A stretch of DNA of 37,861 nucleotides from Chloroflexota bacterium (GCA_029777225.1 JAKOSR010000197.1:1-37861), one strand, 5' to 3'; counted from the first letter of the stretch, positions 1 through 11,967 are shown. The notes: generated from the letters alone by a model not told the origin. Numbers and translations are program-made.

Positions 1-635
1 ATCCACATATGCAGCGGGAAAATCGCCATGGCAATGGCCAATCCGAAAACAATCAGCATCGACGCGCGCAGGATGAGTGGGCTTGCGCTCGGCGCGGTCT
101 CAATCCCGGAGAGCATCAAACCACTCAGCAAAATCATGTTCATGCCCAGCGTCTCAAAAATCAGGTAACGCAATAATCCCGGTCCAGCCCGCGCGCCTCG
201 GGGGGAAAGCAGTGGCACGCTCAAGAGCGCGATAATTTCGATGATGAGCGCCGCGTACAGGAAGGGCTCTACCGCCAGCACGGCAATCCAGAGGCTGGTG
301 AGGATGAGCGAGAGCGCGTTGAACCACATGCTGATTTTGAAACTGCGTGATGGCAGGTTCCACAGCGTATTCAAAACGAACAGCCACGCCACCAGGGTCA
401 GGTCTTCAGGCCCAACGGTAAGCTGCCGCCCAAGCACGCTTAGCGTTTCCGAAAAAACAAAGCGTCTCCCCGCGAACTGGATGACGAGGTCATCTGGCAT
501 GAAGAGGGCTAGCGCGGCCAGCAGCATGGATGCCACGCACACAATCGCCACGGAGGCCTTGGGTTTCCGCGCCAATGGCATTAGCGCCACGCCCACCGCC
601 AGCGGGAACAGGATGAACAGCACGGGCGTTATCAT
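1..635 (-). CDS. Proton-antiporter-like membrane subunit, HyfF/NuoM-like, partial
   Basis: This is an open frame missing from the ORF track because it has no stop inside the window. I translated it by hand from the ATG at 635 to base 1, about 211 residues. It overlaps the stop of the upstream HyfE-like gene by ATGA, which supports the start. The protein is a string of hydrophobic helices and reaches FPLHMWI at the window edge, the signature before transmembrane helix 8 of proton-pumping antiporter subunits (NuoL/M/N, MrpD, HyfB/D/F). A glutamate in ALIIEIIALL sits where the conserved helix-5 Glu is expected. The lysine normally seven residues before the His of PLH is an alanine here. Its place after HyfD-like and HyfE-like genes suggests HyfF of a hydrogenase-4 or complex I-related module. 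The exact complex is inferred. Confidence 0.8.
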   Translation of the reverse strand, partial: MITPVLFILFPLAVGVALMPLARKPKASVAIVCVASMLLAALALFMPDDLVIQFAGRRFVFSETLSVLGRQLTVGPEDLTLVAWLFVLNTLWNLPSRSFKISMWFNALSLILTSLWIAVLAVEPFLYAALIIEIIALLSVPLLSPRGARAGPGLLRYLIFETLGMNMILLSGLMLSGIETAPSASPLILRASMLIVFGLAIAMAIFPLHMW

Positions 636-1231
636 CTTGTCTCCGGTTCCTCGTCCTTGACGATGATATACGCGCCAACCAGCGCCAACCCCAGGTTGAC
701 AGCCGCAAAAAGCGCTTCAAGCACTGTGGAAAACTCCATCGAGCCATACAAGAGCTCAAAGCCGGAAAGAAAAGTCAGTAATCCAATAATCACATACAGG
801 GGTTCGGTAATCATCCCCAGCTGCAGCAGGCCTAGGATGACCAGGCCCAGGCTCGCGGTGAGCACCGGCAGGCTGGTCAGCGGGAAGACCTCCGTCCGTA
901 ATCCCGGTGTGAAGAGGGTGACCGCGATAATCATGAATATCCCGGCCAGACCTCTGAAAATCTCTCCCAGGCTGAACCGAAAAATGTACTGCAATGGCTG
1001 GAGCGTCCCCAGGGAGACCAGGGTCAGGTAAAGGACAAGCGTCACCATCAACCCCACCAGCAGCTTGATAATCCCCAGGCTGGGGTTTCGGAATGTGATG
1101 AGCAGCAGGAAGACCATCCCGTACTGCAGCGCGAGCGCGCCCATGTTCACCAGCCACTGCCTCCGCACGAGGTTGATGAGCGCCATGAGCAGGCACGTGT
1201 AGACAATCACCATTTGCAGGCTTGTGCTCAT
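632..1231 (-). CDS. HyfE-like membrane subunit (hydrogenase-4 / complex I-related)
   Basis: A 199-residue, almost wholly hydrophobic protein with about six predicted membrane helices and a short charged tail ending KDEEPETR. Length and position between two antiporter-like subunits match HyfE of hydrogenase-4, which has a NuoK-like part. The ORF track starts 20 residues earlier, but the ATG at 1231 overlaps the upstream stop as ATGA, and the extra residues would be hydrophilic and lie inside the neighbour, so I chose MSTSLQ. It overlaps the downstream gene by ATGA too, so the three subunits are probably translated together in a fixed ratio. It should sit in the cytoplasmic membrane as part of an ion-translocating arm. 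The family call rests on size, hydropathy and order more than on a catalytic motif. Confidence 0.7.
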   Translation of the reverse strand: MSTSLQMVIVYTCLLMALINLVRRQWLVNMGALALQYGMVFLLLITFRNPSLGIIKLLVGLMVTLVLYLTLVSLGTLQPLQYIFRFSLGEIFRGLAGIFMIIAVTLFTPGLRTEVFPLTSLPVLTASLGLVILGLLQLGMITEPLYVIIGLLTFLSGFELLYGSMEFSTVLEALFAAVNLGLALVGAYIIVKDEEPETR

Positions 1232-2841
1232 GGAACGGCCACCCGGGCCAGGAAGAGCATAATCATCGCGATGAGCAACACAACGGACCACAGCACCCCG
1301 CCGGCTCCCTCCAGGATGTTCGTCAGGTATCCCGCGCCCTTCTCCACTCGCTCAAATATCCACCCAAACGTGCTGAACAGCCAGCGCATGCTGAGCAGAC
1401 TGCTCATGCCGGTCAAAAACGCGCTCACCGCCCGATATCCGGGCATGGTCTCTGCCAGGCTCGCCAATGACCGCCGCGCGCCCAGCTTGAGGAACGCGAA
1501 CCCTCCCAACAAAACCACGGCCAGGCTAGCCACGCTGGCCCACCAACGCCCCAGGGTCAATATTCCCGGCCAGGCCATCAATCCCAAAACCACGATGGTC
1601 TGGCCCACCAGGATTAATCCCAGCGGATAGGTCACCCGCGCGTGCTTTTCCAACCCCGTGATGGTGCTGTTTCCTTCGTAAATGAAGCGGAGGTAGCCCA
1701 GCACCAGCATCGCGTGGGAAATAATCATGAAAAACCCTGCCGCCGATATCCCTTGACCAACCAGGCCGTCCCAACCGCCGGCCGCGGGCGTGAAAGGCAA
1801 CGCCACCAATCCCCACAAACCAAAGGCCATCAAAAAACGGATTCTGCGGATGGGCGGGTCAAACAGGAAAAGCAAGCCCCCTGAAAGTATCAGCGCCAAC
1901 CCCCAAACCCGGCTGGCCCCCGCCTGGTTGTTCAGCGCGCACTGCACCGCGAACGCGGAAAGCGCGGCAATCCAATACGGCCGCCCTTCGTACGCGTCTT
2001 TCCTCGTCAACCACATGCCGGAGGTGTACACGGCGGCAATAACGGCCAGCACCTGGATGATGGTAATCCAATATTGGCGCAACACCAGGAAGTCCGCCGG
2101 CAGCCACGCGATGAGCACCAGCGCCGAAGCCACCGGCGCGAACCGGAATACCAACCCGCTGCTCCGCCGCAATTCCGGTGTATCCAAAAACGGGAGGTGC
2201 AGGGGTAAAACACCCAAGCGCAAGCCGGCGGCCGCCAAAAAGTACAACCCCGCGTTGGCTGGGATTTCGTTCAGCAAAAATTGCGGCTTCACCTGCCACC
2301 CAATTACCGTGGCAGCCACCAGGGCGAAGGTGCTCGCCAGGCGCAAGCCATACACTGAGACGATGTGTGTATTATCCAAAGAGACGCTGCGGACGCGCAG
2401 CAGGTGGACTAACTCCACCAGGTCAACCAATCCCCAGGCCAGCGCCATCGTGAAGGGATTGCCAGCCAGGATGGCGGCAAGGTTGATGGCGGTAATGGCC
2501 AGGGTGCCCGCCCATCCCAACGGCGCTTCTGCCAGTTGGGCGCGGGTGGAATCAGTAAACAGCACCGCCATGCAGATGGTCAGCATGGCCACCGCGTAAG
2601 GCCAGTTGGAATAATCCAACACCAGCGCGGGGAAAGCGAAAAACAGGTTTTCTGGCTTCCACACCAACAACGGGACGTCTGTCGGCAGGTACAGCCGCAT
2701 GAAAAACAGGATGAGCCATGCCAGCAACGAACCAGCCAGCGCAGTGAACCACGCCCGGCCAACCTTCATTCTCGTGGCCTGGCTAAATGTGATTATGATT
2801 GCGGTAGCAATCAACACACCGAAAACGGCGAGTACTGCCAT
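1228..2841 (-). CDS. Proton-antiporter-like membrane subunit, HyfD/NuoM-like
   Basis: A 537-residue polytopic membrane protein with roughly 14 helices, the usual length for NuoM/HyfD-type subunits. LRLGVLPLHLPF near residue 210 matches the helix 7/8 signature of the family, and LVDLVELVHLL keeps acidic residues at the helix-5 position. Two features are unusual: the helix-7 lysine is an arginine, and the helix-8 segment lacks the LLK lysine seen in canonical subunits. The family is known to move protons through these lysines, so this copy may be a structural or altered channel subunit. It lies 20 bases downstream of the hydantoinase gene and overlaps the next gene by ATGA. No strong Shine-Dalgarno sequence precedes the ATG, so coupling to upstream translation is possible. 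Confidence 0.75.
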   Translation of the reverse strand: MAVLAVFGVLIATAIIITFSQATRMKVGRAWFTALAGSLLAWLILFFMRLYLPTDVPLLVWKPENLFFAFPALVLDYSNWPYAVAMLTICMAVLFTDSTRAQLAEAPLGWAGTLAITAINLAAILAGNPFTMALAWGLVDLVELVHLLRVRSVSLDNTHIVSVYGLRLASTFALVAATVIGWQVKPQFLLNEIPANAGLYFLAAAGLRLGVLPLHLPFLDTPELRRSSGLVFRFAPVASALVLIAWLPADFLVLRQYWITIIQVLAVIAAVYTSGMWLTRKDAYEGRPYWIAALSAFAVQCALNNQAGASRVWGLALILSGGLLFLFDPPIRRIRFLMAFGLWGLVALPFTPAAGGWDGLVGQGISAAGFFMIISHAMLVLGYLRFIYEGNSTITGLEKHARVTYPLGLILVGQTIVVLGLMAWPGILTLGRWWASVASLAVVLLGGFAFLKLGARRSLASLAETMPGYRAVSAFLTGMSSLLSMRWLFSTFGWIFERVEKGAGYLTNILEGAGGVLWSVVLLIAMIMLFLARVAVP

Positions 2842-2861
2842 GCTTTAGAACACCATCCTGG

Positions 2862-4277
2862 TTATAGTATCTCTCCGGTTTTGCGGTAAAGGAAGCGTCC
2901 CTGTCCGGCAGAACCGAACCACTCACCATTCCGCACGATTGTCTTGCCACGCAGGAGTACCTGCACGGGATAACCGCGCAATTTCCAGCCTTCATAAAGG
3001 TTGTAATCGGTGCGGTGCTGGGCTTGGGCTACGCCATAGGTCACTTCTCTTTTGGGGTCCCACAGCGCCAGATCTGCGTCAGACCCAACCTCGACGCATC
3101 CTTTTTGAGGATACAACCCAAAGATTTTGGCCGGATTGGTGGAAGTTAATTCCACGAATTGATTGGGTGTCATCATGCCGCCACTGACGGCGTGGTTCCA
3201 AAAAACCACCAACCGGTCACCCAAACCCGGCAGTCCGTTGGGAATCTTAGTAAAGTCGCCCATCCCCAGCTCCTTGCCAGGGATGCGCACGGGCTCGCCT
3301 TCGTAGAGAATGCTTTTTGTCCCATCATAGAAGAACGGGCAGTGATCTGTCGAAAGCACCTGGATGGTTCCATTTTCCAGTCCATTTAGCAATCCTTGCT
3401 GGTCCTGCGCCTTCCGCAATGGTGGCGAGCAAATCCATTTCGCCCCATCCGGCCGTTTCAGGTCATCCTCGGTGAAAAACAGGTATTGCGGGCAGGTTTC
3501 ACCCATCGCGGGCAGTCCTTTGGACCGCGCGTACGCCAACTGGTCAACTTCCTCCGCTACGTTCATGTGCACCAGGTATACCGGCGAATCAGCCTGAGCG
3601 CCAATCGCGAACGCCCGCAGGCTGGCTTCCACTTCGCCCCATGCCGGCCGGGTCCGCGCATGCCAGATGGGTTCCTTGTGCTCGGCCGAAAGCGCTTCGC
3701 TGACCAGTAAATCGATGATGTCGCCATTTTCCGCGTGCACCATCGTCAGCAACCCCGCTTTTCCGCCAATGCGCATCACCTTGAAAATATTGCCGTCATC
3801 CAACCGCAGCCGGCCGTTGTACGCGGTGAACACTTTCACGCTCGTGATGCCAAACCCCGGCAAGTCCTTCAACTGGCTTTCAACAGCATCGTCAAACCGC
3901 GTGATGTTCATGTGCGCGCTGTAATCAATGCTTGTCTTTGGGTCTGCCATGGCCCTGTGACGGACGATGTTATCCTCCAGGCTACCTTTTTCCAGCGAGA
4001 CAAAATCAATCATCGTGGTGGTGCCCCCAAACGCGGCCGCCTTGCCGCCGGTGTAGTGGTCATCACTCGAGACGGTGCTAAACATGGGCAGTTCGAGGTG
4101 CACGTGTGGGTCAACCCCACCGGGCAAAACCAGCAGATTTGTGGCGTCAATCACCTCGCAATCCTCGCTCGGCAAATCCACCCCAATCCACGCAATCTTT
4201 TCCCCATCAATCAGAATGTCGGCCTTGTACGTTTTCTGCGCGGTTACGATGGTGCCATTTTTAATGAGTCTTTTCAT
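2862..4277 (-). CDS. hyuA: Dihydropyrimidinase / hydantoinase
   Basis: Cyclic amidohydrolase of about 471 residues that hydrolyses a cyclic amide such as dihydropyrimidine, hydantoin or a ureido-hydantoin. Metal ligands are visible in order: His58 and His60 in GGVDPHVHLE, the likely carboxylated Lys148 in TSVKVF, His181 in HAENGD, His237 in YLVHMN and Asp311 in STDHCPF. These fit the two-metal hydantoinase centre of the amidohydrolase superfamily. The start at 4277 is preferred over 4289 because GAGAGG lies just before it. The gene sits 28 bases after an unknown ORF and in the same leftward run as carbamate kinase and an 8-oxoguanine deaminase, which suggests a catabolic role for a purine- or pyrimidine-derived ring. 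The natural substrate cannot be read from the sequence. Confidence 0.9.
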   Translation of the reverse strand: MKRLIKNGTIVTAQKTYKADILIDGEKIAWIGVDLPSEDCEVIDATNLLVLPGGVDPHVHLELPMFSTVSSDDHYTGGKAAAFGGTTTMIDFVSLEKGSLEDNIVRHRAMADPKTSIDYSAHMNITRFDDAVESQLKDLPGFGITSVKVFTAYNGRLRLDDGNIFKVMRIGGKAGLLTMVHAENGDIIDLLVSEALSAEHKEPIWHARTRPAWGEVEASLRAFAIGAQADSPVYLVHMNVAEEVDQLAYARSKGLPAMGETCPQYLFFTEDDLKRPDGAKWICSPPLRKAQDQQGLLNGLENGTIQVLSTDHCPFFYDGTKSILYEGEPVRIPGKELGMGDFTKIPNGLPGLGDRLVVFWNHAVSGGMMTPNQFVELTSTNPAKIFGLYPQKGCVEVGSDADLALWDPKREVTYGVAQAQHRTDYNLYEGWKLRGYPVQVLLRGKTIVRNGEWFGSAGQGRFLYRKTGEIL

Positions 4278-4305
4278 GTTTCCTCTCACGCAGTCAATAA
4301 CCCAA

Positions 4306-4866
4306 TTATCCCTGCCGCTTTAGGCCGCTCAACAGGGCCAGGATGGCGGGGTCGAGCGCCGCTTGGGGCAGTTCTGTCGCCCGGTACTCGTTGGCCAGCA
4401 GCGCCCTTTCGCGCAACGCGTGCCAGAGTACGTCCCTCTCCTCGTCATGCACAGGCAGGTCTGCCAGTTCCTCCGCCGAACACAATCGGCCGGCCGTCGT
4501 GTAAAAGAACAACACCCTGCGCCAATTCCCGGCCGGGATAGGGTGGTCCAGTTCAATCAATGGTCCGAGCACGATTTTGAAATACTCTTCCGACGCGCGT
4601 GGATGGTCAGGCTGGTCCTGTAACAGCTCCGCGCGGGTTCTCAATTCGTGCCCAAGCACCGGCGCGATGTACCTGATTTGCCAGCGTTGGTCCACCGGGT
4701 AGGCCCCGCCCTGGTAAAAAGCAATGTAATCCACGGAAATAACCTTGGGCGAGCTTTTCAGCGGCACCCGGTACCAACCCAGCAGCCGGGCGATATCCAG
4801 GTCGCGCTGGTTGGGCACCAGCGCGACCAAAACAAGATCACTTTCAGGAATTTCCTGGAGATTCAA
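4306..4866 (-). CDS. Conserved hypothetical protein, 186 aa, in the catabolic operon
   Basis: I do not recognise a family. The 186-residue protein is soluble, has no signal peptide or membrane segment, and has a compact N-terminal part (VLVALVPNQRDLDIARLLGWYRVPL) followed by KVISVDYIAFYQGGAYP, which looks like an alternating strand/helix fold. The rest is rich in acidic residues and tryptophan. The start is TTG at 4866, preceded by AAGAGGA that overlaps the TAA stop of the PLP enzyme gene, so it is very probably translated by coupling. It ends 28 bases before the hydantoinase. Strict operon placement between two enzymes hints at a role tied to them, but no function should be assigned. Confidence 0.75.
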   Translation of the reverse strand: MNLQEIPESDLVLVALVPNQRDLDIARLLGWYRVPLKSSPKVISVDYIAFYQGGAYPVDQRWQIRYIAPVLGHELRTRAELLQDQPDHPRASEEYFKIVLGPLIELDHPIPAGNWRRVLFFYTTAGRLCSAEELADLPVHDEERDVLWHALRERALLANEYRATELPQAALDPAILALLSGLKRQG

Positions 4867-4874
4867 ATGTCCTC

Positions 4875-6344
4875 TTACACGCTCACGCCGGATTTCTGGT
4901 TAAACTCTTCGATTAACGCGTCAATTTGCGGGGCTTGCTCCTGCACCTCGGTCCAGTAATCCGGGTCATCCCACTGGGCCAGGATTTCTTCGTAAGTTTT
5001 GCCCTGCTGTTCAACCCAGGTGTAATACTTCAGGTTGTGGATGCGCTTGCGTCCCCAATGGGTCAGCTCTTCCATATTGTCGATGCCCTGTCCCTTCAGG
5101 TAGCGGGCGTCATCTGCAACGGCGTTTTCGCGGGTGTACGCGCCGAATTCCTCGTGCATTTCAAGCAGCCGGCTCTGGTAAAGCTCCATGGAGTCCGTCA
5201 ATACCGTGAGCACCACGTCGTCTTCGGTCAGCTCGTTGTACTTGGCAAACTTGATGGCCGAGAGCACGTTGGAGATGCCGGAGAAGCCGAGTAAATCCAG
5301 CTGGCTCACCAGGTTTTCATCAACACCCGAATCAATCAGGTATTGCTTGCCGGTTGGCTCATTGAACAGCCGGGATAGGTTCACCACGGCGTTGTCATCA
5401 ATCGCGGTGACAAAGTCCGTGTTGCGTGAGTTGTGAATCCACGGCACGTGCTTGTCGCCAATGCCTTCAATCCGGTGCGACCCAAAGCCGTTGTTTAGCA
5501 AAGTCGGGCACTGCAGCGCTTCGCTGGCCACCACTTTGCTGCCGGGGTACAGTTGCTTGAGCTTGTCACCGGTGGCAATCGTTCCGGCCGAGCCGGTGGC
5601 GGAAACGAATCCCGCATACCGCATCCCCGGGGTCAGGGTTTGCTTGAGTAGCTCTCCCATGGCGCCGCCAGTGATGGTGTAATGCCACAGGTAGTTGCCC
5701 AGCTCATCGAATTGGTTAAAAATCATCAGGTCCTGCCCGCTACGGCGCAGTTCCCAGCACTTGTCAAAAATTTCCTTCACGTTCGATTCCGACCCCGGGG
5801 TGGCAATCACCTCGCTGGCAATCATTTTCAGCCACTCAAAACGTTCACGGCTCATCCCCTCGGGCAGAATAGCGATGGAGTCGCACGCCAGCAGCGCCGA
5901 ATCATACGCGCCCCCACGACAATAATTGCCCGTGGAGGGCCACACCGCTTTTTGATGCGTGGGGTCAAACTGGCCGGTGACCAGCCGTGGAACCAGGCAA
6001 CCAAACGCCGCGCCAACCTTGTGCGCACCGGTCGGGAACCACTTTCCCACCAGCGCCAAAATGCGCGCTTTCGTCCCGGTCAGGCTGGAGGGGAATTCGA
6101 GGTAGTTCAAGCCACCATACAGGCCGCCAAAGCTCTTGGGTTCATTATGCCAGGTGATGCGGAATAGGTTGAGTGGATGCAAATCCCAAAGCCCAATCCC
6201 CTGCAGTTTTTCCTTGATATTGTCTGGAATCAGGCTGGGGTCCTGTTGCTGCGCCAGGGTGGGGATGATGATGTGCCTGTCGCGAACACGCTCAAGCGTT
6301 CGTTCAAGCCGGTCATTCATGAGGGTGAGGTCTATTTTTGTCAT
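4875..6344 (-). CDS. Fold-type II PLP-dependent enzyme (cysteine synthase/ammonia-lyase-like)
   Basis: A 489-residue pyridoxal phosphate enzyme of the tryptophan synthase beta superfamily. The likely Schiff-base lysine is Lys109 in PTGAHKVGAA, followed by PSTGNYCRGG (the substrate-carboxylate loop) and a glycine-rich SATGSAGTIATGD segment for the cofactor phosphate. It is longer than cysteine synthase (about 310) or diaminopropionate ammonia-lyase YgeX (about 400) and carries an extra C-terminal domain of about 100 residues rich in Trp, Tyr and Glu. Enzymes of this fold do beta-elimination or beta-replacement on amino acids. With hydantoinase and carbamate kinase in the same run, an ammonia-lyase acting on an amino acid released from a ring compound is plausible but unproven. 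AAAGGA precedes the ATG by six bases. Confidence 0.8.
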   Translation of the reverse strand: MTKIDLTLMNDRLERTLERVRDRHIIIPTLAQQQDPSLIPDNIKEKLQGIGLWDLHPLNLFRITWHNEPKSFGGLYGGLNYLEFPSSLTGTKARILALVGKWFPTGAHKVGAAFGCLVPRLVTGQFDPTHQKAVWPSTGNYCRGGAYDSALLACDSIAILPEGMSRERFEWLKMIASEVIATPGSESNVKEIFDKCWELRRSGQDLMIFNQFDELGNYLWHYTITGGAMGELLKQTLTPGMRYAGFVSATGSAGTIATGDKLKQLYPGSKVVASEALQCPTLLNNGFGSHRIEGIGDKHVPWIHNSRNTDFVTAIDDNAVVNLSRLFNEPTGKQYLIDSGVDENLVSQLDLLGFSGISNVLSAIKFAKYNELTEDDVVLTVLTDSMELYQSRLLEMHEEFGAYTRENAVADDARYLKGQGIDNMEELTHWGRKRIHNLKYYTWVEQQGKTYEEILAQWDDPDYWTEVQEQAPQIDALIEEFNQKSGVSV

Positions 6345-6359
6345 AATTTTCCTTTGGGT

Positions 6360-7340
6360 TCACTTTTCTTTGATCGGATTAGGTTGGTTCAGCCGGGTGG
6401 GGTCCAGTTCGTCGCTGGGTCCTTCCGACACAATATACAAGGGACGTCCTTTGGCTTCGTCGTAAATGCGGCCGATATATTCCCCCAGGATTCCCATGCC
6501 ACACAGAATTAATCCCGAAAGGAAGATAACGGTCAGCCACACGGCCAAAATCCAGGTGAGGTCAAAATGCGCGACCAATGCCAGCAACAGGAAAACCGCC
6601 AGCAAGGCGACGCTCAGACCCATCAGCGCCGCGCCGATGCTGAAAATCACCTGCAGCGGCCAGGCTGAAAAACCAGTTACTGCGTTCATGGCCAGTTTCA
6701 ACATTTTCTTGAAAGGATAATGGGTGGTGCCGGCGTGCCTGGCCGCGCGTTTATATTCCACCCCGATTTGCTTAAATCCAACCCAGGAGCCCATTCCCCG
6801 CAAAAACCGGTTGCGTTCCCGCATTCGATCAAGCACATTCAGTGCCTGCCGGTCGATGAGCCTGAAATCCCCGGTATCCAGTGGGATTTTGACATCCGTG
6901 ATTTTGTCAATCATCCGGTAAAACATGGATGCCGTGGTTTTCTTGAACCAGCTTTCGCCTTCCCGTTCGGTGCGGATGGCATACACGATTTGGTAGCCTT
7001 CGCGCCATTTCTTAATCATCTCCAGGATGACTTCCGGCGGGTCCTGAAGGTCCGCGTCAATGATAACAACCGCGTCCCCGCGGCTGTAATCCATCCCCGC
7101 CGTGACCGCGATTTGGTGCCCAAAATTGCGCGAGAAGATTACCGGGCGCACCCGGCCGTCCTGCGCTCCCAGCTTGCGAATCACCTCCGTGGACCCATCT
7201 GCACTACCGTCATCCACGAGGATTAACTCCCATAGCTCCCCGCTCTGGTCCATCACTTCGCGCAGCCGCGCGTAAAGCAGGGGCAGGTTTTCCAGCTCGT
7301 TGTAAATAGGCGCGATGATGCTGAAAACCGGTTTATCCAT
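6360..7340 (-). CDS. Family 2 glycosyltransferase, GtrB/DPM1-like
   Basis: A 326-residue GT-A fold glycosyltransferase. The N-terminal catalytic domain has FSIIAPIYNE, LVDDGSADGS and DADLQDPPE, which are the nucleotide-sugar and DXD-type metal-binding motifs of dolichol/undecaprenyl-phosphate sugar transferases. Two strong membrane helices follow at about residues 230-290, as in GtrB/ArnC-like proteins that load a sugar onto undecaprenyl phosphate at the inner face of the membrane. The ATG lies inside the end of the threonine synthase-like gene (8-base overlap), so translation is coupled. The function does not match the catabolic genes on either side. It may simply have been inserted into the operon, or it may serve envelope glycan synthesis with the GT cluster at the right end. 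Confidence 0.88.
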   Translation of the reverse strand: MDKPVFSIIAPIYNELENLPLLYARLREVMDQSGELWELILVDDGSADGSTEVIRKLGAQDGRVRPVIFSRNFGHQIAVTAGMDYSRGDAVVIIDADLQDPPEVILEMIKKWREGYQIVYAIRTEREGESWFKKTTASMFYRMIDKITDVKIPLDTGDFRLIDRQALNVLDRMRERNRFLRGMGSWVGFKQIGVEYKRAARHAGTTHYPFKKMLKLAMNAVTGFSAWPLQVIFSIGAALMGLSVALLAVFLLLALVAHFDLTWILAVWLTVIFLSGLILCGMGILGEYIGRIYDEAKGRPLYIVSEGPSDELDPTRLNQPNPIKEK

Positions 7341-8577
7341 GCAGCAATCCTTTCAAGGCTGCCAGGGTGGGCTCAATCACCGGGGCTGGGTTCACGGCCA
7401 TGGTGGCCGCGCGCACGTCCTTCAGCCCGCTGCCAGTGCACAGCACCAACGCCGGCGCGGCAGGGTCAAGTAATCCCTCCCGCAAGGACTTTAACAGCCC
7501 GGCATAAGCGGTGGCCGCGGCCGGCTCTACGAACAGCCCGGCCTTCCCCAGCGCGGGGATGGCCTTGAGGATTTCCTCATCTGGCACGGTCACATACCAG
7601 CCACCAGTCTCCCGCACTGCTTTCAGCGCCCGCAGGCCATCGCGTGGCAGGTCCACCGAGATGCTGTCCGCCAGCGTGGTCGCGCTGATGGGCATGATGG
7701 TGTCCGACCTGCTGAAAAACGCATTGGCAATCGCCGCGGAGCCATCCGCCTGCACCCCCACCAGGCGTGGCAGCCGGTCAATCCAACCGAGGTGCAGCAG
7801 GTCCTTGAACCCTTTGGCCAGCCCCGATAGGATGTTCCCATCGCCCACAGGGATGAACACTGTCAACGGCTCGGACCTTTCCGGCATGTGCCGCAGCACC
7901 TGCTCCCAAATCTCGTAGGCGGCGGTCTTTTTTCCTTCAACCGTAAAGGGGTTGTACCCTGTGTTGCGGTTGTACCAGCCAAACTCATGGCTGGCTTCAA
8001 TGCTCAGGTCAAATGCCTGGTCATACGTGCCCTCCACAAGGATAACCTGGGCGCCAAAGGTGAGCAGTTGGGCAATCTTGGCCGGGGGCGCGCTGCGCGG
8101 TGCCAAAATAATGGCCTTGCGCGCAACACTGGCCGACATGCACGCCATCGCTGCCCCGGCATTCCCCGTGGACGCGGCGACGATGGTTTTTACGTCCGTC
8201 TCAATCGCCCTGGCAATCACAACCGCGCTGGCCCGGTCCTTGAACGACGCGCTGGGGTTGCGGCTTTCATCCTTGATCCAAAGCTCCCGCATGCCCAGCG
8301 TCTTTTCCAGTAGGGGTGGCCGGTAAACCGGCGTCATCCCCACCGCGTGCAGCGGTGTGGGCTGAAAACCCGGGTCCGAAACCGGCAGCAGCGCCGTATA
8401 GCGCCAGATGGACATCTCCCGGCTGTCAAGGATGCCTTCCTTGGAGACCAGGCCGGGATTAAATTCGTAATCCAGGCGTGTGTCCAGGTTACCGCCGCAA
8501 TCCGGGCAGACATACGTCACCTCATCGGGTGAAAGTGTTTTCCCACAACATGAGCACTCAAAATGATGTATGGCCAT
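7333..8577 (-). CDS. thrC: Threonine synthase-like PLP enzyme with N-terminal zinc ribbon
   Basis: A 414-residue fold-type II PLP enzyme. The first 30 residues form a zinc ribbon (CSCCGK and CPDCGG), common in archaeal-type and class I threonine synthases. The Schiff-base lysine is in NPSASFKDRA, the substrate loop is ASTGNAGAA, and VFIPVGDGN supplies the phosphate cup. The expected reaction is O-phosphohomoserine to threonine. The neighbours are not threonine pathway genes, so a lyase acting on another phosphorylated or hydroxylated amino acid remains possible. The ATG at 8577 has AGGGAGG four bases upstream; a TTG directly before it is also possible. A perfect hairpin lies in the gap from carbamate kinase. 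Confidence 0.8.
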   Translation of the reverse strand: MAIHHFECSCCGKTLSPDEVTYVCPDCGGNLDTRLDYEFNPGLVSKEGILDSREMSIWRYTALLPVSDPGFQPTPLHAVGMTPVYRPPLLEKTLGMRELWIKDESRNPSASFKDRASAVVIARAIETDVKTIVAASTGNAGAAMACMSASVARKAIILAPRSAPPAKIAQLLTFGAQVILVEGTYDQAFDLSIEASHEFGWYNRNTGYNPFTVEGKKTAAYEIWEQVLRHMPERSEPLTVFIPVGDGNILSGLAKGFKDLLHLGWIDRLPRLVGVQADGSAAIANAFFSRSDTIMPISATTLADSISVDLPRDGLRALKAVRETGGWYVTVPDEEILKAIPALGKAGLFVEPAAATAYAGLLKSLREGLLDPAAPALVLCTGSGLKDVRAATMAVNPAPVIEPTLAALKGLLHG

Positions 8578-8594
8578 CAAGCCTCCCTATGCGA

Positions 8595-8636: not shown

Positions 8637-9584
8637 TCAGGGCACAATCCAGGTGCCGGTTTTCCCATCCAGGGCTTCCTTGATGTGTTCAGGGTCGGTG
8701 ATGAGGGCTTTCCTTCCGCCTTTTTCCATGTATTTGAGAATAGCCTGGATTTTTGGCAGCATAGAGCCTTTGGCAAAGTGACCCTGCGCCATGTACTCCT
8801 TGGCTTCTTCCACGCTCATTTGGTCCAGGAATTTCTGGTCAGGTTTATTGAAATTAATCGCCACCTTCTCGACTGCGGTGCTAATCAGGAACAGGTCGGC
8901 ATCAATCATGCTCGCCAGGATGGCGCTCCCAAAATCCTTGTCGATAACCGCTTCCACACCAGTCAGGCTTCCGTCAGGCATTTGCTGCACCGGAATGCCG
9001 CCGCCTCCTACCGCGACAACCACGAATCCCTCATCAATCAGCCCGCGGATGGCATCCGCCTCAACAATCACCTGCGGGATGGGGGAGGGAACCACGCGCC
9101 GCCAGCCGCGGCCGGCGTCCTCAACCATCGTCCAGCCCAGCTCGGCCATCTTTGCCTTGGCTTGCTCCTCGCTCATGAACGAGCCAATCGGTTTGCTGGG
9201 GTTCTGGAACGCGGGGTCCTTGCTATCCACCACCGTTTGCGTGATGATGGTCGCGGCTTGCTTCTTGATGCCCCTTTTCAGGAATTCGTTGTGCAGCGCC
9301 TGTTGGAACATGTAACCAATGGAGCCCTGGGAATCTGCGCCGCAGTAGTCCAGCGGCACTTCGTGCAGCTCATGCGCGGAAAGTTCTGACCTGCGCAGGA
9401 TGAAACCCACTTGTGGACCGTTGCCATGCGTGACCACCACATCCCAGCCATCCAAAATCATGTCCGCGATGTGTACCATCGTGTCCACAGCTGCCTGGTA
9501 TTGGTCCTGGACTGTTTGGTGGTTTTTATCCTTAATTAATGCGTTGCCGCCCACCGCGACGACTGCCAAACCTTTTCTTTCCAT
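8637..9584 (-). CDS. arcC: Carbamate kinase
   Basis: A 315-residue kinase of the amino acid kinase family that converts carbamoyl phosphate and ADP to ATP, carbon dioxide and ammonia in fermentative degradation of arginine, allantoin or purines. Family motifs are visible: VAVGGNALI at the N terminus, VVTHGNGPQVG, IVEADAIRGLIDEG, VVAVGGGGIPV and GVEAVIDKDFGSA. The ORF track begins 19 residues upstream, but AGGAGAG sits at normal distance before the ATG at 9584 and the resulting length is typical. No arginine deiminase or ornithine carbamoyltransferase lies nearby. The source of carbamoyl phosphate is therefore probably a ureido compound made by the hydantoinase route, which is inference. Confidence 0.93.
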   Translation of the reverse strand: MERKGLAVVAVGGNALIKDKNHQTVQDQYQAAVDTMVHIADMILDGWDVVVTHGNGPQVGFILRRSELSAHELHEVPLDYCGADSQGSIGYMFQQALHNEFLKRGIKKQAATIITQTVVDSKDPAFQNPSKPIGSFMSEEQAKAKMAELGWTMVEDAGRGWRRVVPSPIPQVIVEADAIRGLIDEGFVVVAVGGGGIPVQQMPDGSLTGVEAVIDKDFGSAILASMIDADLFLISTAVEKVAINFNKPDQKFLDQMSVEEAKEYMAQGHFAKGSMLPKIQAILKYMEKGGRKALITDPEHIKEALDGKTGTWIVP

Positions 9585-9597
9585 ATATTTCTCTCCT

Positions 9598-9615
9598 AAA
9601 ATTGACATCAATTTT
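9598..9615. promoter_or_regulatory. AT-rich palindrome upstream of arcC (possible operator)
   Basis: AAAATTGA and its exact complement TCAATTTT are separated by two bases, directly upstream of the arcC ribosome binding site. The size and symmetry fit a site for a dimeric repressor, but it could also be a chance AT-rich repeat. A second inverted repeat lies within a few bases. Confidence 0.4.
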
Positions 9616-9617
9616 TC

Positions 9618-9640
9618 TGTTTCCGTGTGTTTCGGAAACA
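9618..9640. repeat. Inverted repeat TGTTTCCG-N7-CGGAAACA
   Basis: This is an 8-bp perfect inverted repeat with a 7-base spacer, starting just after the stop of the amidohydrolase gene. In the leftward transcript it is followed by GAAAAAUUG, not a U-run, so it is not a standard terminator. It could be a processing hairpin or, with the adjacent palindrome, a protein-binding site. Confidence 0.4.
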
Positions 9641-9646
9641 ATAATT

Positions 9647-11032
9647 TTACTCCGCAATCAGCCGTCGTGAAGCTTTGTTGTGCCTTTCCACATGCGTTGG
9701 CAGGTCCAGCGTGCGCAGTTGTCCATCCCCGACAATAACTTCCCCACCCACCACGGTCCAGTTGGCTTTGACAGGCGCGCAGAACACGACCGCGGCCACC
9801 GGGTCTTCCAGCGCGCCGGCATAATCCACCTTGTTCAGGTCAATGGCGAAGAAATCCGCGCATTTTCCCACTTCCAGGCTGCCGATATCCGTCCGACCCA
9901 ACACTGAAGCTCCCCCGCGTGTGGCCACCCGCAAAGCCTGCCTGGCGGTCATCAGTGGTGGCGCGTCTGGTGCGGAGCGTGAAGCGCCCTTGATTCCGCT
10001 GTGCAACCGGGCCAGCAGCATGGCCTGCCGTGCCTCATTCAGCATGTGCGAGCCGTCGTTGCTCGCCGACCCGTCCACACCCAAGCCCAGCTTCACTCCC
10101 CGCGCGAGCATTTTCATCACCGGCGCGATGCCTGAAGCCAGCCGCATGTTGGAGGACGGGCAATGTGCCACACCACAGCCATGCTGGGCGTAAAGGTCCA
10201 CCTCGGCGTCATTAACCCACACGGAATGGGCGAACCACACGTCGTTTCCAATCCAATCCACGCTCTGCATATACGCCACGGGTTTTTGTCCGAACTTTTG
10301 CAGGCAGAAATCATCCTCGTCCTCGGTCTCCGCCAGGTGCGTGTGCAGGTGCACATGGTATTCCCGCGCCAGCTGCGCCGACTGGCGCATCAATTCACCG
10401 GTAACACTGAACGGCGAACACGGCGCCAGCACAATCTGCAACTTTGAACCAGGCTCCGGGTTGTGGTATCTCTGGATGACCCTCAGGCTGTCCTTCAGGA
10501 TGTTTTCTTCGCTATCGGTCACGCTGTCCGGGGGCAGCCCGCCCTCGGATTCCCCCAGGCTCATGGACCCGCGTGCGGCGTGTAACCGCAGACCCACAAT
10601 TCTTGCGCCTTCGATTTCATCGTCCAGCCTGGCACCATTGGGGAACAGGTACAGGTGGTCCGAGGATGTCGTGCAACCCGTGAGCGCCAGTTCGGCCAGC
10701 GCAGTTTGCGTGCTGATGAACACGTCCTCGGGTGTCATACGTGCCCAAATGGGATACAGCGTTTTCAACCAGTTGAACAGGTTGGCGTCCTGTGTTCCAG
10801 GCACCGCGCGCGTCAGGGTTTGGTAGAAATGGTGGTGCGTGTTCACCATGCCGGGAAAAACAATGTGGCCGGCCAGGTCCAACACTTCGTCCGCGTCCTG
10901 AGGCAGTGCTTCAACCGGGCCAATTTGCTCGATAAAGCCATCCCGGCAAAAAATGGCCGCTCCGCGCAACTCGCGGAGGGCATCATCCATGGTTACGATC
11001 ATTTCGGCGTTTTTTACCAATAAGGTCGTCAT
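9647..11032 (-). CDS. 8-oxoguanine deaminase-type amidohydrolase
   Basis: A 461-residue metal-dependent deaminase of the amidohydrolase superfamily (AtzB/TrzN/SsnA/guanine deaminase group). NTHHHFYQTLTRAVP near residues 64-78 is the sequence I associate with 8-oxoguanine deaminase, which releases ammonia from 8-oxoguanine to give urate. Metal and catalytic residues are present: His66 and His68, His230 and His232 with Glu235 in HTHLAETE, His269 in FAHSVW and Asp320 in GLGVDGSASND. AGGAGAG precedes the ATG. It follows folD by 19 bases and precedes carbamate kinase. If the substrate call is right, the operon would feed urate or a related purine into ring cleavage. Other s-triazine or cytosine-like substrates are possible. 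Confidence 0.82.
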   Translation of the reverse strand: MTTLLVKNAEMIVTMDDALRELRGAAIFCRDGFIEQIGPVEALPQDADEVLDLAGHIVFPGMVNTHHHFYQTLTRAVPGTQDANLFNWLKTLYPIWARMTPEDVFISTQTALAELALTGCTTSSDHLYLFPNGARLDDEIEGARIVGLRLHAARGSMSLGESEGGLPPDSVTDSEENILKDSLRVIQRYHNPEPGSKLQIVLAPCSPFSVTGELMRQSAQLAREYHVHLHTHLAETEDEDDFCLQKFGQKPVAYMQSVDWIGNDVWFAHSVWVNDAEVDLYAQHGCGVAHCPSSNMRLASGIAPVMKMLARGVKLGLGVDGSASNDGSHMLNEARQAMLLARLHSGIKGASRSAPDAPPLMTARQALRVATRGGASVLGRTDIGSLEVGKCADFFAIDLNKVDYAGALEDPVAAVVFCAPVKANWTVVGGEVIVGDGQLRTLDLPTHVERHNKASRRLIAE

Positions 11033-11051: not shown

Positions 11052-11942
11052 TTACTTTTGGGTGTTCAAATCCGCCAGTTCGCGCGCGTGCAGCGTGTTT
11101 TGCAGCAGCAGCGCGATGGTCATAGGTCCAACTCCGCCGGGAACCGGTGTGATGGCCGAGGCAACTTCCGCGGCTTCTTCATACGCCACGTCGCCAACCA
11201 GCCGGCTGCCTTTGGGGGATGTCGGATCTTCAATCCGGTTGATGCCCACGTCGATCACCACCGCGCCTGGCTTTATCCAGTCTTTTTTAACCATTTCTGG
11301 CTGTCCAATCGCTGCCACCAACACGTCCGCCTGTCGGCAAACCCCGGCGAGGTCCCGCGTGCGGGAGTGGCAGATGGTCACTGTCGCGTTGGCTTTCACC
11401 AGTAACAGCGCCACAGGCATTCCCACGATGTTCGAGCGCCCCAGCACCACGGCATTCGCGCCAGCCAGCTTGGCCCCCGCCCGCTCCAACAGCACCATCA
11501 CACCCGCAGGTGTGCACGGCACAAACAACGGCGTACGCCCTTTTTGTGCCAGCCGCCCGATATTAATCGGGTGGAAACCGTCCACATCCTTGCCAAGCTG
11601 GATGGTGGCCAGTATCTTTTCTTCATCCAAATGAGCCGGCAGCGGTAACTGCACCAATATGCCGTTGATGGTGGGGTCCTCGTTTAGCTCTCGCACCTTC
11701 GCTTCCACCTGTTCCTGGGTGGCATCCCCCGGCAATTCCACGCCGATTGAATGGATGCCAACTTCCGCGCAGGCCTTCTGCTTGTTGCGCACGTAGACCT
11801 TTGAAGCCGGGTTTTCCCCCACCAATACTGTGGCCAGCCCGGGCACGGGCAGACCTTTTGAGACTCGCAGCGCGACGGCCTCCTTCACTTTTTCCCTGGT
11901 TTCAGCGGCTATTTGTTTTCCATCGATGATAGTAGCGGTCAT
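11052..11942 (-). CDS. folD: Methylene-THF dehydrogenase / methenyl-THF cyclohydrolase
   Basis: A 296-residue bifunctional enzyme that interconverts 5,10-methylene-, 5,10-methenyl- and 10-formyl-tetrahydrofolate in the cytoplasm. Signatures are SKVYVRNKQKAC (with the catalytic Tyr and Lys), GILVQLPLPAH, GKDVDGFHPINIGRL, LGRSNIVGMPVA for NADP binding and PVPGGVGPMTIALL near the end. The length is typical. It is the first gene of the leftward run, with a TATAAT 20 bases before the ATG and GGAGAG as ribosome binding site. It could be simple housekeeping. In known purine-fermenting bacteria, one-carbon units from the purine ring pass through methenyl-THF, so its place at the head of this operon fits a catabolic role. 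Confidence 0.96.
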   Translation of the reverse strand: MTATIIDGKQIAAETREKVKEAVALRVSKGLPVPGLATVLVGENPASKVYVRNKQKACAEVGIHSIGVELPGDATQEQVEAKVRELNEDPTINGILVQLPLPAHLDEEKILATIQLGKDVDGFHPINIGRLAQKGRTPLFVPCTPAGVMVLLERAGAKLAGANAVVLGRSNIVGMPVALLLVKANATVTICHSRTRDLAGVCRQADVLVAAIGQPEMVKKDWIKPGAVVIDVGINRIEDPTSPKGSRLVGDVAYEEAAEVASAITPVPGGVGPMTIALLLQNTLHARELADLNTQK

Positions 11943-11961: not shown

Positions 11962-11967
11962 ATTATA
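11962..11967 (-). promoter_or_regulatory. -10 element for folD operon
   Basis: A perfect TATAAT reads leftward, ending 19 bases before the folD ATG, and would give a leader of about 13 bases containing GGAGAG. No good -35 is seen. It faces away from the udk -10 element, which lies only 14 bases to the right. Confidence 0.65.

Follow-up and report, generated by a model that had tools for sequence, protein, structure and literature searches.

A conserved unit of three membrane genes, here called M1, M2 and M3, directly follows a hydantoinase gene in an Anaerolineaceae draft genome, and we give an even chance to the reading that it encodes a free-standing, redox-free ion-conducting module of the Mrp, HyfDEF or DabB kind, expressed in this lineage with a ring-degrading operon. 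The genome comprises 2.07 Mb in 207 contigs and is 92% complete, and the stretch of DNA that was analyzed, referred to below as the window, is the whole of contig C85 (37,861 nucleotides). The original prediction took the three genes for HyfD-, HyfE- and HyfF-like subunits that might share a transcript with the hydantoinase gene, and it proposed that the catabolism of a nitrogenous ring may thereby be tied to a hydrogenase-4 or formate-linked membrane complex. A literature search found no description of the M1-M2-M3 trio.

The locus and the complete M3 gene

The geometry first proposed for the locus, in which a hydantoinase gene is followed after a 20-nt gap by three overlapping membrane genes, is exact in the gene coordinates on the minus strand (Table 1). 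The hydantoinase scored 492 bits against TIGR02033, for which the cut-off is 393, and both the M1/M2 and the M2/M3 junctions are ATGA overlaps of 4 nt. The order hydantoinase-M1-M2-M3 is kept in dozens of relatives, most of whose loci have an M2/M3 spacing of exactly -4 nt. We note that in genome G047 (locus L049) a glycosyltransferase-like gene at 6714-7901 lies between M2 and M3 and breaks the usual direct overlap.

Table 1. Features of the window discussed in the text, listed from the presumed operon promoter to the contig end
Feature	Position	Strand	Basis or remark
TATAAT of presumed operon promoter, 5' of folD	11962..11967	minus	sequence
folD	11052-11942	minus	first gene of catabolic block
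8-oxoguanine-deaminase-type amidohydrolase	9647-11032	minus	PRK08203 model; SsnA model not passed
Carbamate kinase	8637-9641	minus	family match
Threonine-synthase-like PLP enzyme	7333-8580	minus	family match
GT2 glycosyltransferase	6360-7340	minus	family match
PALP enzyme	4875-6344	minus	family match
186-aa protein	4306-4866	minus	no family match
Hydantoinase (D-hydantoinase/dihydropyrimidinase family)	2862..4277 (ATG 4277, stop 2862)	minus	TIGR02033 and PF01979; last enzyme gene ahead of the trio
Intergenic gap, hydantoinase/M1	2842..2861 (20 nt)	minus	no promoter of its own
M1	1228..2841 (537 aa)	minus	NuoL-fold antiporter-like membrane subunit (predicted fold)
M2	632..1231 (ATG 1231, stop 632; 199 aa)	minus	HyfE-like by size and place
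M3, N-terminal part	1..635 (211 codons, runs off contig end)	minus	NuoN/HyfF-type antiporter-like subunit; PF00361

The remainder of M3 is found on another contig of the same genome. The first bases of contig C67 (L038), ATTTTCCCGCTGCATATGTGGAT, are identical to the reverse complement of window bases 1-23, and the sole PF00361 match of the genome lies at the very start of this contig. Through this 23-nt overlap the window and bases 1-807 of C67 join in frame into a full M3 of 472 aa, and the joined protein is colinear with the intact M3 proteins of relatives. Beyond base 1, where a catalytic partner was to be sought, C67 encodes past M3 only a coiled-coil protein, SelB, a phosphoglycerate-dehydrogenase-like protein (serA) and a carboxypeptidase, in that order; neither a NiFe large subunit, a formate dehydrogenase, NuoH nor any other complex I gene was found past M3 on this contig, and no gene there qualifies as the catalytic partner. 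The carboxypeptidase gene, of the M32 type (C67, 4987-6495), is split by an in-frame TAG in this genome and is intact, at about 502 aa, in relatives.

The coiled-coil gene precedes selB in most loci, and 76 of the order's 81 genomes encode the coiled-coil protein. M3 and the coiled-coil gene are separated by a spacer that carries a TATAAT, often with an extended -10, in 55 of 57 loci (at 847-852 on C67), which argues that the coiled-coil gene and selB form a separate unit. Because it has a promoter of its own and is also present without M1, the coiled-coil gene is ruled out as a dedicated partner of the trio. SelB, a translation factor encoded behind it, is likewise ruled out.

Promoter pattern and the catabolic operon

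The trio probably shares the hydantoinase transcript in the window's lineage, as the original prediction supposed it might. The gap between the hydantoinase gene and M1 is short and kept, at 3-27 nt in most of 38 adjacent loci, and a scan of 2842-2861 for a promoter, the sign of independent regulation, found no site within the gap. The scan also picked up a single weak terminator-like stem within M1, which is below chance expectation. None of 38 hydantoinase-adjacent loci has TATAAT 5' of M1, and 1 of 37 has it 5' of the hydantoinase gene, versus 11 of 12 loci for folD, the head of the catabolic block; the background in random windows was 155 of 4,000 (3.9%), and the next promoter lies past M3. 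Moreover, an extended -10 (mostly TGATACAAT or TGATAAAAT) stands 5' of M1 in 23 of 36 loci in which the hydantoinase is not adjacent and in 2 of 38 in which it is, against a background of 8%, and since the loci used for all of these promoter counts are related by descent, the counts are not independent. In the window's lineage the pattern fits a predicted single operon that runs from folD through M3; elsewhere it fits a putative independent M1-M3 unit.

The catabolic operon itself, which appears from its genes to be of the purine/hydantoin type, resembles a reductive uric acid cluster, although a resemblance is not an identification. HyuA and carbamate kinase participate in the reductive uric acid cluster, and a Chloroflexota variant of that cluster exists (PMC12507026). 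The GT2 glycosyltransferase and the 186-aa protein, whose genes lie within the operon, are kept in most relatives that have it.

Distribution of the trio and its neighbors

The trio appears to belong to one order. Eighty trio loci were found in a scan of named genomes, and the clearly named ones are nearly all from Anaerolineae, with Longilinea arvoryzae (where hydantoinase, M1, M2 and M3 follow one another at locus L107), Anaerolinea thermolimosa and Brevefilum among them. When 300 genomes from across the phylum were searched, strong M1 matches came only from the order Anaerolineales, across which the M1 profile matches 67 of 81 genomes and M1-M2-M3 are kept as a unit with ATGA coupling. What stands upstream is less constant: the hydantoinase gene lies directly 5' of M1 in 38 of 75 loci and other neighbors do so in about half, and another large clade has a divergent DUF3048 gene instead of the hydantoinase gene. 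On the M1 tree, a minimum of 6-8 changes is needed to account for hydantoinase adjacency, which is strongly clustered.

Such variation is what mere adjacency would produce, and perhaps the trio does a general job and its position after the hydantoinase gene carries no functional meaning. The promoter-like site 5' of M1 in other lineages points the same way, as does the coiled-coil-selB pair, which follows whatever stands upstream. We nevertheless consider mere adjacency somewhat unlikely. The hydantoinase neighbor recurs in family groups f1, f7 and f14; in family f9 a similar catabolic cluster adjoins the trio with the hydantoinase gene missing; and it is precisely the hydantoinase-adjacent loci that lack a separate promoter for M1.

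Identity of the three subunits

M1, M2 and M3 are better written as NuoL-fold, HyfE-like by position and NuoN/HyfF-like, respectively, than as HyfD-, HyfE- and HyfF-like. M3 is a member of Proton_antipo_M (PF00361; E 9e-13, 48.5 bits against a cut-off of 21.5), a family matched by 17 of 19 M3 family members, and its profile is close to HyfF (3.1e-20), but NuoN is nearer (1.6e-23) and HyfD is weaker than either.

M1 is recognized by its predicted fold. No sequence match to M1 was found in Pfam, NCBIfam or PDB, 0 of 18 members match PF00361 at its curated cut-off, and M1 and M3 compared as profiles gave no significant match. The AlphaFold model of M1, built from 67 sequences (pLDDT 84.9), matched NuoL, ND5 and MrpA chains in Foldseek with probability 1.00 and TM 0.65-0.72, the best match being E. 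coli NuoL (E 1.1e-11), and the M1 profile also matches a canonical NuoL from the same class (E 3e-9). Thus, a NuoL fold is supported by prediction, and the model places M1 nearest NuoL rather than HyfD, a label that no sequence test supports.

M2 recalls HyfE only by its size, its position and its topology. Its AlphaFold model (pLDDT 91.0) has seven predicted TM helices arranged 3+1+3. Searches of Pfam, NCBIfam and PDB by sequence gave no significant match, and a comparison of the model with PDB folds gave none either, the best being a complex I ND2 chain (E 0.26). HyfE was the best of 18 tested proteins for the M2 profile and was colinear, but the match was not significant (E 0.15), and an internal NuoK-like duplication was not detectable in M2. 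Any relationship of M2 to NuoK or HyfE is at most putative, a point that counts against the module reading.

Charged residues and the question of a soluble partner

Antiporter-like subunits carry a Glu in TM5 and a Lys in TM7 (NuoL E144 and K229; NuoN E133 and K217), and NuoN cannot do without K247 and K395, whereas its K217A variant still pumps (PMC13073174). M3 has Trp, Leu or Ala at the K217 site in TM7 (Lys in 0 of 47) and mostly Pro or Gln at the K247 site in TM8 (Lys again in 0 of 47); the K395 site is Arg or Lys in 37 of 47, and the TM5 Glu site is displaced by about one turn. M1 has Arg at the TM7 site (R208, 67 of 67) and a small residue at the TM5 Glu site, with D140 (67 of 67) and E143 (64 of 67) one or two turns off. 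In M2, E159 and E166 are near-invariant (63 of 67). The trio therefore retains conserved charges without the canonical pumping set, and with those residues degraded the module may not move ions at all. DabB2, however, has a NuoL fold and no redox partner and works without the TM5 Glu (PMC13144422), and so the loss of canonical residues is no proof of inactivity.

The same example suggests that the trio could serve a soluble enzyme from the membrane, in the way that DabB serves DabA, with ion flow driving a cytoplasmic reaction that is perhaps one of the operon's own. We think this unlikely, even though DabB2 shares the NuoL fold, the lack of a redox partner and the missing TM5 Glu and even though the trio ends the operon in the window's lineage. 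No soluble gene was found to accompany the trio in every lineage, as the neighbors vary by clade, and the adjoining coiled-coil gene is excluded on the grounds given above.

Quite improbable, in our view, is a transporter of substrate or product (purine, ureide or ammonium) that evolved from antiporter-like subunits. The loss of the usual pumping lysines and the predicted co-transcription with catabolic genes would suit such a transporter, but the trio is also found in lineages without adjacent catabolic genes. Moreover, we know of no PF00361 complex of the trio's kind that carries organic solutes.

Search for catalytic partners in the genus

Two subunits expected of a hydrogenase-4 or FHL-2 complex were not found in the window's genus. 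PF00346 (NuoD/HyfG) and PF00146 (NuoH/HyfC) were each detected in 0 of 29 genus genomes by searches that did find them in 11 of 14 control genomes and in the greater part of the wider order; as MAGs are incomplete, it is the consistency across many genomes that carries these absences. In 26 of the 29 genus genomes there is exactly one PF00361 match and, among the places listed, that match is the M3 gene. In G044, a family member assembled as one contig and 99% complete, M1-M2-M3 are present at locus L154, and neither PF00346 nor PF00146 was found. The absence of both families from the genus and from G044, with M3 as the lone PF00361 protein, argues that the trio is an orphan membrane arm.

The genome of the window does encode two NiFe hydrogenases, on C98 and C130, one of which is accompanied by NuoF/NuoG-type diaphorase genes. 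Both are ruled out as partners of the trio, as they are group-3-like and no membrane subunits were seen adjoining them. Formate dehydrogenase alpha was over the cut-off in about six of 19 genus genomes searched. It was not over the cut-off in the window's own genome, a 92%-complete MAG that encodes FdhD and from whose draft formate dehydrogenase may therefore be missing, and formate dehydrogenase was found neither in a 96%-complete genus member carrying the trio nor in others with the trio.

Two further observations concern the hydrogenase contigs. Beside the NiFe hydrogenase genes on C130 (L006), a gene at 3133-4437 encodes a fusion in which an FdhD domain (residues 209-431) follows an N-terminal portion that, read by eye, resembles a hydrogenase maturation protease. 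In addition, one stretch of a NuoG-type gene is present on both C94 (L060) and C130 in slightly different versions, and so the two contigs are probably neighbors or strain variants in the assembly.

The proposed link to hydrogenase-4 or formate, in which the trio would supply HyfDEF to a hydrogenase-4 or FHL-2 with its catalytic genes elsewhere and ring catabolism would be coupled to formate or H2, is close to refuted and in our estimation highly improbable: the arrangement and lengths of the genes are reminiscent of HyfD-HyfE-HyfF, HyfF is among the nearest matches to M3, and FdhD in this genome and formate dehydrogenase in some genus members would fit, but HyfG/NuoD and HyfC/NuoH are missing from 29 of 29 genus genomes, the NiFe hydrogenases present are group-3-like, formate dehydrogenase is patchy in the genus, no partner lies past base 1, and M1 is NuoL-like rather than HyfD-like.

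A proposed free-standing module and the known systems nearest to it

As a free-standing module, M1-M2-M3 would be built of complex-I-type parts, with a NuoL-fold subunit, a small HyfE-like subunit and a NuoN/HyfF-like subunit that may assemble into a three-subunit complex. The complex would conduct H+ or Na+, like the cores of Mrp, HyfDEF or DabB, and would use or balance an ion gradient rather than build one from a redox reaction. In the window's lineage the trio would be expressed as the final part of a purine/hydantoin-type ring-degrading operon, and from that position its service is probably needed during such catabolism. The role could be, for example, ion balance or an ion-coupled exchange tied to ammonia or substrate.

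Each of the known systems resembles the trio in part. HyfDEF of hydrogenase-4/FHL-2 likewise consists of three consecutive membrane genes in the order large antiporter-like, small HyfE-like and large antiporter-like, whereas the trio is without hydrogenase or formate dehydrogenase genes, its M1 is nearest NuoL, and the match of M2 to HyfE is not significant. HyfDEF can be removed from FHL-2 with H2 production retained and has no defined function (PMC7384014), and thus a free-living relative is plausible. The Mrp core (the N-terminal part of MrpA, MrpC and MrpD) also unites a NuoL-like and a NuoN-like subunit with a small one and has no redox module (PMC7419157). The trio differs from Mrp in that no conserved genes of the MrpB, MrpE, MrpF or MrpG type were seen beside it in 19 relatives or 80 loci, in that M2 has seven TM helices versus three, and in that M3 is without the TM7 and TM8 lysines. 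DabA-DabB (DAB2), which serves CO2 uptake, has a NuoL-fold membrane subunit outside a redox complex that has lost the TM5 Glu (PMC13144422), but no DabA-like (PF10070) gene was recognized among the neighbors of the trio, which has three membrane subunits rather than one. Finally, the membrane arm of respiratory complex I shares with the trio the PF00361 membership of M3 and the predicted NuoL fold of M1, but NuoH and NuoD were not found in the genus, and the trio is without the key lysines.

We speculate that the trio may exemplify a previously unrecognized class of three-subunit machine that is made of complex-I-type parts, stands alone and is confined to Anaerolineales, with redox-free ion flow driving or balancing anaerobic nitrogen-ring degradation, although as a whole this broader proposal is more doubtful than probable. 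"Hydrogenase-4 subunit" annotations in Anaerolineae should meanwhile be read with caution, as they are not evidence of hydrogen or formate metabolism. The trio adds an unexplained membrane component to a nitrogen-ring degradation operon of Chloroflexota. A lineage that has the trio, and in which neither complex I nor a group 4 hydrogenase was found, would offer a clean test of what antiporter-like subunits do without a redox engine. Ultimately, if the proposal is true, the trio would be the first demonstrated case of a HyfDEF-like module that lives and functions independently.
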